From a virus, in the IMG/VR virus record IMGVR_UViG_3300021437_000033, positions 1-43,814 of that record: a stretch of DNA of 43,814 nt; one strand, given 5' to 3'. Below are positions 10,178 to 33,529 of this stretch, piece after piece (position 1 is the first letter of the stretch; each line of letters begins with the position of its first letter). The translations under genes and the position numbers were made by a program. Under the pieces are notes generated by a model that ran no database searches, was not told the DNA's origin, and saw nothing but the letters and a program-made list of their open reading frames with translations.

Positions 10178-10704
10178 AATTCGCTCCGAATCGGCCTGCC
10201 AAAGCCTTCTCCGCCAATCGTGCTTGTTCCCGAGCCTTGATAGGCTTGCTGCGTGGGAGCTGCTACGCCTCCTCCAGCCAAGGAAATCGGAGTTGCCCCG
10301 CCATAGGCCACGGGATGCGATGCTGCGGAGCCAAATAGCTGGCTGTAAGCCCGGATGAACAGCGTTTGATTGCCTAGGAATACATTCTTGTTTCTGTGCG
10401 GGCCAAGATTGTCCGTATGCACGATGTTCGTGAAGCCGCTGTCGGTTGCAAACTCAAGAAAGTAGGTAATCGGACGACTGTCTGTGCTCGCAAGCTGGGA
10501 GTTGTCTATAATCTGCACGTTGAACAAACCATTGGCTGCCGTGACGGAAACGGAGGAAATATCTGGCGTAATCTTGAACACACCCACCGGATCGGAGCCT
10601 ACTTGCTGGCCCAAAGAGTTCACCGCCTGGATAATCTTCACTAGCGATTCATAGAGGTACGGGTCGCGGCTCTTTAGCGGTGCAATTTGAGCAATGGTCA
10701 GCAT
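10174..10704 (-). CDS. Tail-associated virion protein, 176 aa
   Basis: A helical N-terminus (LYESLVKIIQAVNSLGQQVG) followed by a fibronectin-like beta region (about 45-125: FNVQIIDN, PITYFLEFATDSGF, QTLFIRAYSQ) and a Gly/Ser-rich tail. It overlaps the 1065-aa gene by 1 base. Probable minor structural or fibre-anchoring protein. Confidence 0.55.
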   Translation of the reverse strand: MLTIAQIAPLKSRDPYLYESLVKIIQAVNSLGQQVGSDPVGVFKITPDISSVSVTAANGLFNVQIIDNSQLASTDSRPITYFLEFATDSGFTNIVHTDNLGPHRNKNVFLGNQTLFIRAYSQLFGSAASHPVAYGGATPISLAGGGVAAPTQQAYQGSGTSTIGGEGFGRPIRSEL

Positions 10705-30776: not shown

Positions 30777-30938
30777 CTATCTAAGATTGGTAGTACTGGT
30801 ACTTTTGGTGATCCTCTGTGCCGTTGTCCGGCTCACGTGGTAACGATAGGCTAATTGCCCGCAACTTAGCCCTTGCTTGCGCTTTTGGCGCATCTCCTGC
30901 CGCTGCTGCTCACTCAGCTTTTTTCGTCGGTCCACCAT
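30777..30938 (-). CDS. Small HTH DNA-binding protein, divergent to the transposase operon
   Basis: 53 aa, MVDRRKKLSEQQRQEMRQKR then KQGLSCGQLAYRYHVSRTTA QRITKS: a resolvase/homeodomain-like HTH (residues about 23-45) with very basic flanks. AAAGG lies 6 bp before the ATG. It points away from the plus-strand transposase operon, and the shared intergenic region contains palindromes, so it is the obvious candidate to bind them and repress both promoters. Confidence 0.65.
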   Translation of the reverse strand: MVDRRKKLSEQQRQEMRQKRKQGLSCGQLAYRYHVSRTTAQRITKSTSTTNLR

Positions 30939-30967
30939 GCCCCGCCTTTGCCGCCTGCTCCCGCAAC

Positions 30968-31001
30968 ATTTTAGGGACTTATATACCTGACTCCCTAAAA
31001 T
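30968..31001. promoter_or_regulatory. Palindromic operator in the divergent promoter region
   Basis: Perfect 10-bp inverted arms ATTTTAGGGA / TCCCTAAAAT surround the core. Inside (30974-30995) is a 22-bp imperfect palindrome GGGA-C-TTATATAC...A-C-TCCC. A half copy, GGGAGTTATATAC, overlaps the plus promoter at 31020-31032. A second full copy is at 32571-32592. No T-run follows, so this is not a terminator. Confidence 0.7.
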
Positions 31002-31006
31002 AGTGC

Positions 31007-31035
31007 TTGACAACGGTGAGGGAGTTATATACAAT
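31007..31035 (+). promoter_or_regulatory. Promoter of the plus-strand transposase operon
   Basis: TTGACA (31007-31012), 17-bp spacer, TACAAT (31030-31035). The half operator GGGAGTTATATAC (31020-31032) covers the spacer and start of the -10, so a bound protein should block RNA polymerase. The transcript would start near 31042, 17 bases before the first ATG. Confidence 0.75.
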
Positions 31036-31058
31036 GGAGTCAGAAAGTGAGGTTCCCA

Positions 31059-31295
31059 ATGATTAGCTTTTGGAAAGGCAGTTACGATTACAAGAGGGCG
31101 CTTGAATACGATTTCACTCCTATCGAGTCCACTCAAGTGCCCGGCTCTTTCTTCCGCTGCAAATGTAATCAATGCGGAAAGGTCTACAACATCAATCAGC
31201 GAATGAGAATTTGGCAACACAATTGGAAACACAAAAACGAAGATGCTGAGAGGGCGGGAACGTCGAATGTACCTCTCGGCATCATGGGGTTCTAA
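31059..31295 (+). CDS. Small Cys/His (zinc-finger-like) protein, 78 aa
   Basis: ATG 31059 has GAGG 7 bp upstream. MISFWKGSYDYKRALEYDFT is followed by FFRCKCNQCGKVYNINQRMR IWQHNWKHK (about 34-62), a CxCxxC...HxxxH arrangement like a C2H2 finger, then a Gly-rich end. First gene of the transposase operon; probably DNA-binding. Not a known IS1595 accessory to my knowledge. Confidence 0.65.
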   Translation: MISFWKGSYDYKRALEYDFTPIESTQVPGSFFRCKCNQCGKVYNINQRMRIWQHNWKHKNEDAERAGTSNVPLGIMGF

Positions 31296-31296
31296 A

Positions 31297-31551
31297 ATGG
31301 CAACCCTTACAACTAACCACATAGCAGCACAAGAAAGAAAACGATTGAAACGATTGAAGGTCAACGTGCAAGGGAAAATCGTGGTTGAGGAGCACGGCAT
31401 GTATGACTGGCTTGTGATGTTCCCAAGTGGCCGCATAGAACGCTTCCGCAACAAATCCGAGGTGGAAAGAGTCGCCAAGCAGTATTTCGCCAGACGGGCC
31501 AAAAAGGCGGCAATCAATGCAGGATTGATTGAATGGAGAGATAAACGATGA
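31297..31551 (+). CDS. Small basic protein, 84 aa
   Basis: Begins MATLTTNHIAAQERKRLKRL, with a beta hairpin (VQGKIVVEEHGMYDWLVMFP SGR) and a basic helix ending GLIEWRDKR. It starts 1 bp after the upstream stop and overlaps the transposase by ATGA. A DNA-binding or transposition helper role is inferred from coupling only. Confidence 0.6.
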   Translation: MATLTTNHIAAQERKRLKRLKVNVQGKIVVEEHGMYDWLVMFPSGRIERFRNKSEVERVAKQYFARRAKKAAINAGLIEWRDKR

Positions 31552-32465
31552 GCCGTTCGACAATCAGCACCTTCAAACTCTTCGAGATGTTTCCTGACGA
31601 AGGCAGCGCGAGAACCTATCTGGAATCGCGGCTCTGGCCGAACGGCGTCACCTGCCCGGAGTGCAAGAGCATGGAGCGAATCACCGTCCGCAAAGACGGC
31701 TACTATCGCTGCAATCCCTGCAAATTGGACTTCACTGTCCGAACTGGGACCATTTTCGAGCGGTCGCACGTTCCGCTCCATAAGTGGCTCTATGCGATGT
31801 ACCTGCTCGTTACAGCTCGCAAAGGCATTTCTTCGATGCAACTGGCGAAGGAAATCGGTATCACTCAGAAATCCGCGTGGTTCGTTCTTCACCGTCTCCG
31901 CGAAGCGTGCGGCAAGGACTTGGACAAACTGCGCGGCACCGTCGAGATCGACGAGACTTTCATCGGCGGTTTGGAAATCAACAAGCACGAAGCCGATAAA
32001 CAGAATCTCGGACGCGGCTCGGTTGGCAAGACTCCCGTACTCGGAATGCGGGAGCGCGGCGGTCGCACAAAGGCAATGCCTCTCAAGACCGTGAGCATGG
32101 AAGAAATCCAGAACGCGATTCACCGCAACGTCGAAGTCGGCTCGACTCTCTTCACTGATGAGCACGGAGCGTACAACGACTTGGACGGCCTGTTCTTCCG
32201 GCAAGAGTGGGTCAACCATTCTGCGGGTGAGTACGTTCGCGGAGTCGCCAGGACGAACAGCATTGAGAGCGTGTGGGCCGTCCTCAAGCGCGGACTGCAC
32301 GGCGTCTACCACCAAGTCAGCAAGAAGCATCTCGCCCGCTACGTTGCCGAGTTCACATTCCGGCTGAATCAAGGGAATGTTGCTCGCCACACGCTCAAGC
32401 GGCTCGATTCGTTCGTGGACGCGGTTGTGGGGAAGCGACTCACTTACGAAAGGCTCACCGCATGA
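31548..32465 (+). CDS. IS1595 (ISXO2-like) family transposase
   Basis: 305 aa, full length. N-terminal zinc ribbon C36-x2-C39...C55-x2-C58; winged HTH (about 92-120, SSMQLAKEIGITQKSAWFVL). DDE/N-type catalytic core: VEIDETFIGG (D135), LFTDEHGAY (D204) and RTNSIESVWAVLKRG (N237/E240), then GVYH. No residue appears lost. Unlike a free IS it is embedded in a four-gene operon with ATGA couplings to both neighbours. It may move this island, serve phage integration, or be domesticated. Confidence 0.9.
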   Translation: MSRSTISTFKLFEMFPDEGSARTYLESRLWPNGVTCPECKSMERITVRKDGYYRCNPCKLDFTVRTGTIFERSHVPLHKWLYAMYLLVTARKGISSMQLAKEIGITQKSAWFVLHRLREACGKDLDKLRGTVEIDETFIGGLEINKHEADKQNLGRGSVGKTPVLGMRERGGRTKAMPLKTVSMEEIQNAIHRNVEVGSTLFTDEHGAYNDLDGLFFRQEWVNHSAGEYVRGVARTNSIESVWAVLKRGLHGVYHQVSKKHLARYVAEFTFRLNQGNVARHTLKRLDSFVDAVVGKRLTYERLTA

Positions 32466-32578
32466 ACCGCGAACTCCTAGACCGAGTGACTGACCATGTG
32501 CTCGCATACCGTCCTAAGCCGAAGTCAAGGGCCGCGAAAAAGCGTGCCCGGAAGAAACGAAAAAAGAAAAGGGACTAA
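32462..32578 (+). CDS. Lys/Arg-rich peptide, 38 aa
   Basis: Reads MNRELLDRVTDHVLAYRPKP then a tail of Lys and Arg ending RKKRKKKRD. The ATG overlaps the transposase stop (ATGA). An amphipathic helix plus polybasic tail suggests nucleic-acid binding. Its stop overlaps the convergent PAPS-reductase-like gene's stop. Confidence 0.6.
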   Translation: MNRELLDRVTDHVLAYRPKPKSRAAKKRARKKRKKKRD

Positions 32579-32592
32579 TGTATATAATTCCC
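32571..32592. promoter_or_regulatory. Second 22-bp palindromic site at the far end of the island
   Basis: Read on the minus strand it is GGGA-A-TTATATAC...A-G-TCCC and matches the site at 30974-30995 in 18 of 22 positions. CATTTAAT precedes it where CATTTTA precedes the first. It covers the stop codons of both converging genes. It is either an operator copy or an inverted terminal repeat of the transposase island. Confidence 0.6.
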
Positions 32593-33222
32593 ATTAAATG
32601 CCCCTGGCGTCTCTTGCGCAATGCGTACCAGCTTGGGCAGGCTCTTTTTGTGGCAACAATCACAGTTCCCTTGATGGTCTTTCAATCCCAAGTCGAACGG
32701 CTGCTTCTTCCACCAATCTAAAATTTCCCACTTTAGAGTTGGCCAGATATGCATAAGTGGATACATCACGCCGAGTTTTGGCTTTGATCTGCGCGGTTCA
32801 TCCAATCGAATGCCCTGCAAGATCTTGTAATCCTTCCAGCCGAGACCTTGAATAAAGCTACGGATAGGATTCGCTTTCAACTCCCGCGTGCAATGTAGAT
32901 AGTTCATGTTGGCGATGCCGTACTTCTGGATCACAGCCTCGAACGGCTCGCCGTGTCTGCTTGCTGTCGCATGGTCAACAATCTTGTGAGTACATCCAGT
33001 TCCGCGCTCGTTGACTACAGCTTCTACCCAAATAATTGGCAGGTTCCATTCTTCGGCGCAGCGGTGAACGAATAGCAGCGTTTCTTCACGCTCCTTGCCA
33101 GTGTTGGCGAAAACAACTATTAGCTCATTTGAATTAAACCAACCTTCCTCTAAGAGCTTCCATGTCATGTAAGCAGAAGATCGTCCACCTGAAAAGCTGA
33201 CCAAGAATCGCTCACTCCCCAT
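32575..33222 (-). CDS. PAPS-reductase-family (PP-loop ATP pyrophosphatase) protein
   Basis: 215 aa from ATG 33222 (GGTGGGGA upstream). PP-loop SFSGGRSSAYMT (9-20) with SGGxxS, TGKEREET (41-48), CTRELKANP (111-119), QGIRLDEPRR (136-145) and a CxCC cluster (187-190). The family activates substrates through adenylylation (PAPS reductase, DndC, tRNA/sulfur enzymes). In phages it may serve sulfur-containing base or backbone modification or host metabolism; the methyltransferase at 39.7 kb makes DNA modification plausible. The Cys cluster could bind metal. Confidence 0.8.
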   Translation of the reverse strand: MGSERFLVSFSGGRSSAYMTWKLLEEGWFNSNELIVVFANTGKEREETLLFVHRCAEEWNLPIIWVEAVVNERGTGCTHKIVDHATASRHGEPFEAVIQKYGIANMNYLHCTRELKANPIRSFIQGLGWKDYKILQGIRLDEPRRSKPKLGVMYPLMHIWPTLKWEILDWWKKQPFDLGLKDHQGNCDCCHKKSLPKLVRIAQETPGAFNGNYIH

Positions 33223-33529
33223 TCCCCACCTTCCCCTCCAGCTTTCGGAGCGCATCGTCTGCTGCATTATACGCCCTGTCAATTAGTGCATCACCTTCCT
33301 TATTCGAACTGCCGGGAAAGTACCTCAACTCAGCTTGGCATAGGCGCAGGGCTTCCACCAACTCTTCAATCACCGGCACCAGCTTGGCATGGTGAGCGGA
33401 GAGTTCGTCGGCGGCTTTCCGCATTCCCTCAACGTAATCTCTCTCCCAACTTGGCTCCATGCTCCCAATGGGTAACTTGCGCCATTTCTCCGCCAACCCC
33501 CCGTCCAGCAGCTTGGCTATGTCCATCAT
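33212..33529 (-). CDS. Helical hypothetical protein, 105 aa
   Basis: ATG 33529 (GGAGAAACC upstream; it overlaps the previous stop). An all-helical acidic protein: MMDIAKLLDGGLAEKWRKLP, then YVEGMRKAADELSAHHAKLV and EALRLCQAELRYF. Typical of early phage accessory proteins of unknown role. Confidence 0.55.
   Translation of the reverse strand: MMDIAKLLDGGLAEKWRKLPIGSMEPSWERDYVEGMRKAADELSAHHAKLVPVIEELVEALRLCQAELRYFPGSSNKEGDALIDRAYNAADDALRKLEGKVGNGE

Follow-up and report, generated by a model that had tools for sequence, protein, structure and literature searches.

The stretch of DNA analysed here, hereafter the window, spans 43,814 bp and constitutes one IMG/VR virus record. We found in it an HTH-like ORF on the minus strand and, to its right, four plus-strand ORFs of 78, 84, 305 and 38 aa, as the original prediction had described them. 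They are listed here together with the promoter, the terminal inverted repeats (TIRs) and the adjoining phage gene.

30777-30938, minus strand: 53-aa HTH-like ORF, outside the element, ending 35 bp left of the left TIR
30974-32592, plus strand: predicted full-length IS1595-family element (1,619 bp) that carries passenger genes; paired TIRs found by end profile (PWM) and pattern
30974-30996, plus strand: left TIR GGGACTTATATACCTGACTCCCT, 23 bp
31007-31035, plus strand: sigma70-like promoter, TTGACA at 31007-31012, 17-bp spacer, TACAAT at 31030-31035
31019-31032, plus strand: internal copy AGGGAGTTATATAC, putative transposase operator, overlapping the -10 region
31059-31295, plus strand: cargo gene 1, 78-aa zinc-finger-like protein
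31297-31551, plus strand: cargo gene 2, 84-aa protein
31548-32465, plus strand: IS1595-family transposase, 305 aa, by Pfam and NCBIfam models
32462-32578, plus strand: 38-aa basic protein, putative accessory, with an ATGA overlap with the transposase
32570-32592, minus strand: right TIR, reverse complement GGGAATTATATACATTAGTCCCT, 23 bp
32575-33228, minus strand: PAPS-reductase-like phage gene, cut by the right end of the element

Judged by transposase models, catalytic residues and the GGG ends of the element, the 305-aa protein belongs to the IS1595 family. It matched the IS1595 transposase model NF033547 (E 1.4e-58, 198 bits, cut-off 75) and the Pfam models DDE_Tnp_IS1595 (E 3.9e-41, 141 bits, cut-off 27) and Zn_ribbon_IS1595 (E 2.7e-11, 43.7 bits, cut-off 25.4). 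Residues D135, D204, N237, E240 and K247, which are 98-100% conserved in 110 sequences, are all present, and the CxxC...CxxC zinc ribbon is intact. The IS1016 signature quoted in PMC12561309 matches the catalytic residues of the window transposase.

The four ORFs had been described as joined by ATGA overlaps. We found such overlaps at two of the three plus-strand junctions (31548 and 32462), whereas the 78-aa and 84-aa ORFs lie 1 nt apart. The 53-aa ORF gave Pfam matches to HTH_Tnp_4 and HTH_7, all under the curated cut-off, and was not found beside any relative of the element except in the identical contig L002. No Pfam match to a tyrosine integrase or a serine resolvase was detected in the window, in agreement with the original prediction. 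At the left edge of the window, positions 1-162 gave many overlapping translated matches to L048 (709-1134) and L058, which suggests a repetitive protein there.

Ends of the element and its mobile relatives

The ends were recognised by comparison with the closest relatives, L003, L004, L005 and L066 (90-95% at the amino-acid level). DNA similarity to these relatives covers the transposase and continues to about 32595, and a separate block of 61-67 nt at 30971-31037, left of the cargo, is shared with L003 and L066. Both window TIRs begin with GGG, and the inner end of the right one overlaps the last codons of the gene for the 38-aa protein. The 22-bp end pattern has no further copy in the window (chance expectation 0.00), and the element is present once in the record. 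The promoter, which is conserved in L003, L066 and L004, had been thought to lie under a palindrome; a sigma70-like promoter is indeed present, but the supposed palindrome is the left TIR of a mobile element. At L004:3400-3460 the left terminal repeat is truncated, starting near ATGACTCCCC, and this copy is probably immobilised.

The right boundary of the window copy is fixed independently of the repeats, because the element interrupts a PAPS-reductase-like gene. This gene reads ...RIAQETPGAFN and then takes its last five codons and stop (GNYIH-stop) out of the TIR; eight intact relatives on other viral contigs go on for about 60-70 aa as WWGxM... from exactly that point. The missing 3' part had no match in the flank left of the element. 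We infer that the element broke the gene and that the opposite flank subsequently disappeared or was rearranged, so that the window copy would have lost one original flank and would now be anchored in the broken gene. Its left end is assigned from TIR identity and the comparison with L003 and L066.

Target-site duplications, which the original prediction had proposed to look for, are exact in 71 relatives but absent at the window copy, which is flanked by ACATTTTA and ATTAAATG; the lost flank would explain the absence. L066 (92% aa) has the same ends as the window element and a perfect 8-bp duplication, AAAACTTT. Its transposase frame (L066:10001-10919) is shifted near position 10670, and together with the perfect duplication this indicates a recently moved, now broken copy. 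To survey the family, an end profile trained on relatives with duplications was applied to 127 related loci. Paired ends were found at 102 of them and an exact 8-bp target duplication at the 71 just mentioned (66 once a few near-identical contigs are left out), compared with none of 264 control positions. The duplications are 84% A/T, and the elements measure 1.4-4.7 kb, with a median of 1.8 kb.

We also found an empty site. By searching for the joined flanks of L018, a 1,785-bp element with the duplication ATTGTTTT, we obtained a sister-phage contig, L129, from which this element is absent. The flanks (300 + 300 bp) are 100% identical to those of L018 and enclose a single copy of the 8 bp. 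L129 bears its own 85%-identical element at another place, with other cargo (L012). The same search for L009, L041 and L073 found nothing. The exact empty site of L018 is the comparative basis on which we consider that the passenger-carrying unit probably transposes as a whole.

Because the flanks of the viral loci carry terminase, tail fibre and DNA polymerase genes, we take these loci to be phages. Bacterial copies were found as well: 47 loci came from the genome collection, and among 399 Terriglobia genomes 10 each had a single copy. In the tree, copies from viruses and from genomes are intermixed, and, given this and the Terriglobia copies, a strict viral specialisation of the family is not claimed. 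One 60-kb viral contig, IMGVR_UViG_3300048824_000144, holds two elements (L008 and L019) at different sites, with perfect 8-bp duplications and different cargo.

Taken together, these comparisons of sequences indicate, with a probability of about 0.88, that the island is a passenger-carrying transposable element of the IS1595 family, resident in phage genomes and in some bacterial ones. Of the readings first offered, that of a phage-borne mobile unit is thus borne out by the ends, the duplications of the relatives and one exact empty site. A repressor of its own, which this unit might have carried, is not supported: the HTH gene lies outside the element and is otherwise seen only in L002.

The other early reading was that of an integration or lysogeny device; as we considered it, the transposase would integrate the phage and the HTH protein would repress the divergent promoter. 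A window that yields neither an integrase nor a resolvase, and an HTH gene that adjoins a promoter with symmetric sites, would suit such a device. The inverted repeats, however, bound 1.6 kb inside the phage and not the phage genome, the relatives occupy unconnected sites in phages and bacteria that are themselves unrelated, where 8-bp duplications surround the small unit, the HTH gene is not conserved, and one viral contig holds two copies at different sites. We therefore regard this reading as exceedingly improbable, and the interpretation of such islands as genetic switches is corrected here. It is also very unlikely that the transposase has been domesticated, the operon being a fixed phage gene cluster with relic ends and the small proteins acting as phage regulators. 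That idea draws on features of the window copy itself, namely its missing duplication, its single occurrence in the record and its lost flank, but both TIRs, the promoter and the catalytic residues are intact and the closest relatives sit in other contexts with other cargo. L066 moreover retains a perfect duplication, though its own transposase frame is shifted.

The cargo slot and its partner genes

The cargo ORFs enclosed by paired TIRs, in the window and in the catalogued relatives, are passenger genes of the type known from tIS, the passenger-gene elements of the IS1595 family. We compared elements that carry cargo in front of the transposase. In 58 pairs the DNA of the main block is identical to 80% or more, yet for 55 of these pairs the shared part of the slot is below 10%. 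On the left, the shared DNA extends past the promoter and stops at a median of 93 bp; on the right, conservation resumes at the transposase start codon, the distance being 6 nt or less in 48 of 57 pairs. No shared recombination site was seen by eye at the cargo junctions. Some clades have cargo behind the transposase instead of in front of it, and in a quick tree this position follows the branching only partly.

The two cargo proteins of the window have few relatives. The 78-aa protein had none in phage records or IMG/VR beyond the identical contig, and relatives of the 84-aa protein turned up only among the cargo of two elements, L004 and L077, of which L077 belongs to a different clade. The AF2 model of the 84-aa protein has a pLDDT of 75, and a fold search with it returned no confident match. 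As both are absent from other copies, the two proteins presumably play no part in transposition.

The small protein behind the transposase behaves differently. In most members of the family the gene downstream of the transposase encodes a basic protein (38 aa in the window) with the motif LDxIxDxVLAYRPKPKxKxAKKR. The idea that three small proteins accompany the transposase therefore holds for this regular partner but not for the 78-aa and 84-aa proteins. Beside chromosomal IS1595 elements of 36-44% identity the partner was not found, except for one weak match (L145), so it looks like a trait of this transposase subfamily and not a general IS1595 partner. Probably the partner either binds DNA as an accessory or modulates transposition. 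Several of these chromosomal relatives also have paired ends, duplications and long cargo-sized stretches. Three of them, L144, L145 and L147 (38-44% identity), are 2.5-3.4 kb long with paired ends, 8-bp duplications and long downstream stretches, and have no clear basic partner.

The sequences show two inverted 23-bp ends around a single operon, in which an internal promoter is followed by a cargo slot, the transposase and its small basic partner. The following mechanism would fit these observations. The transposase would bind the ends through its zinc ribbon/HTH N-terminus, and cargo lying between the promoter and the transposase start codon would be exchanged between elements. The simplest route may be homologous recombination between co-infecting phages, in which the conserved left ~90 bp and the transposase block of ~1 kb would serve as arms; exchange through such arms is deduced from the end products. 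Occasional illegitimate joins might accompany it. In L066 we found a 33-nt second copy of the transposase start that is closer to the sequence of the window than to that of L066 itself, and this duplicate is likely a recombination scar left by such a join.

Cargo functions and expression

We examined 149 cargo ORFs. C5 cytosine methyltransferases (7) make up most of those that can be recognised; an N4/N6 methyltransferase, Mom, Lar (restriction alleviation) and PAPS-reductase-like proteins also occur. Most cargo ORFs, both window genes included, match no characterised function. As a control we used 115 length-matched ORFs from the flanks of viral elements. DNA-modification and restriction-alleviation families account for 8-9 of 115 phage-borne cargo ORFs and for none of the 115 neighbours (Fisher p 0.003-0.007), on small numbers and with families chosen after the cargo had been seen.

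These data bear on whether the cargo is selected at all. The element could be a passenger IS with random cargo of no selected function, its turnover reflecting sloppy recombination only; most cargo ORFs are indeed small orphans, and passenger IS1595 elements were already known. Yet the cargo is mostly co-directional, often has ribosome-binding sites and overlaps the transposase start, and DNA-modification genes recur in it and are missing from the matched neighbours. We consider random cargo rather unlikely. In our mechanism cargo would be kept for a benefit to the phage, the recognisable cases being mostly directed against restriction. One may extend this, as a possibility that we put forward tentatively and hold to be somewhat short of even odds, to a phage-adapted transposon family that carries counter-defence cassettes: a fixed shell of two ends, a self-repressed promoter, the transposase and its coupled basic protein would move among phages, the cassette in the slot would be traded when phages co-infect, and small genes against restriction and other defences would spread in this way; many of the orphan cargo proteins would be unrecognised anti-defence proteins.

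Two further observations concern unusual cargo. At L092:10915-12207 the small basic protein is apparently fused to a C5 DNA methyltransferase, joining cargo to the partner gene. Cargo in bacterial MAGs (L091:1414-1941, L097:11031-11561 and L117:9422-11521) includes membrane proteins reminiscent of defence effectors and other large uncharacterised proteins. Our impression is that defence genes may be the cargo of host copies, and counter-defence genes that of phage copies.

The promoter points to a possible control of cargo expression. Read on the opposite strand, the GGGAGT in AGGGAGTTATATAC gives ACTCCC, the inner bases of the TIR. When each element was compared with its own ends, the promoter region held the reverse complement of its own TIR variant in 30 of 69 elements, against a mean of 13.8 (maximum 20) with swapped partners, a count inflated by relatedness since the GCGAGT clade is counted several times. 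Examples of covarying pairs are GCGAGT with ACTCGC, TGGAGT with ACTCCA and GGAAGT with ACTTCC. This pattern is only suggestive of a transposase that binds both the TIR and the promoter copy and represses its own operon. Bound to this half-copy of the end repeat, the transposase would limit its own expression and that of the cargo.

Gene-exchanging mobile elements of phages are far less known than bacterial ones. With its standard shell and a slot whose gene can be replaced, a small transposon present in many phages would give them a mechanism for trading accessory genes. Its 23-bp ends and the transposase start codon would also offer a bioinformatic handle for collecting candidate anti-defence genes.

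Comparison with known systems

Mu-like transposable phages are a known case of a DDE transposase in a phage. Unlike in those phages, only two copies of the end repeat are present here and they bound 1.6 kb of interior, in a record that may be a fragment of the phage genome. The element resembles the integron gene cassettes of phages (PMC9892861), where a fixed promoter likewise precedes genes that can be interchanged, but the window has no match to PF00589 (tyrosine recombinase), and the shell itself is a transposon.

Among IS1595 insertion sequences, ISApl4 is 712 bp long and contains the transposase only. The window element shares with such sequences (IS1016 subgroup, ISApl4) the transposase family, the catalytic signature and the GGG ends, and its relatives have A/T-rich 8-bp direct repeats like those described for ISApl4 (PMC12561309). 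Unlike ISApl4, the window element also has a slot for cargo between its promoter and the transposase, and its transposase gene is coupled to that of a 38-aa basic protein.

Siguier et al. 2009 is reportedly the defining paper for tIS. The described examples tISCpe8, MTnSag1/tISSag10 and ISNha5 (PMC5704250, PMC11891212), together with the cargo-sized stretches of the chromosomal relatives, weaken the earlier statement that ordinary IS1595 elements carry little besides the transposase. Like these three, the window element combines an IS1595 transposase with passenger genes within its ends. They carry resistance or regulator genes in bacteria, and two of them are mobilised by conjugation, whereas the present element is phage-borne and nearly every copy in its family has different cargo between the promoter and the transposase start codon. 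We found no description of tIS in phages or with exchangeable cargo in the open-access literature; since tIS as such are known, we regard the family as a new variant rather than a new kind. As far as the sequences compared here allow us to judge, what is new relative to the known tIS is a shell, present in many phages, whose cargo slot takes interchangeable contents.
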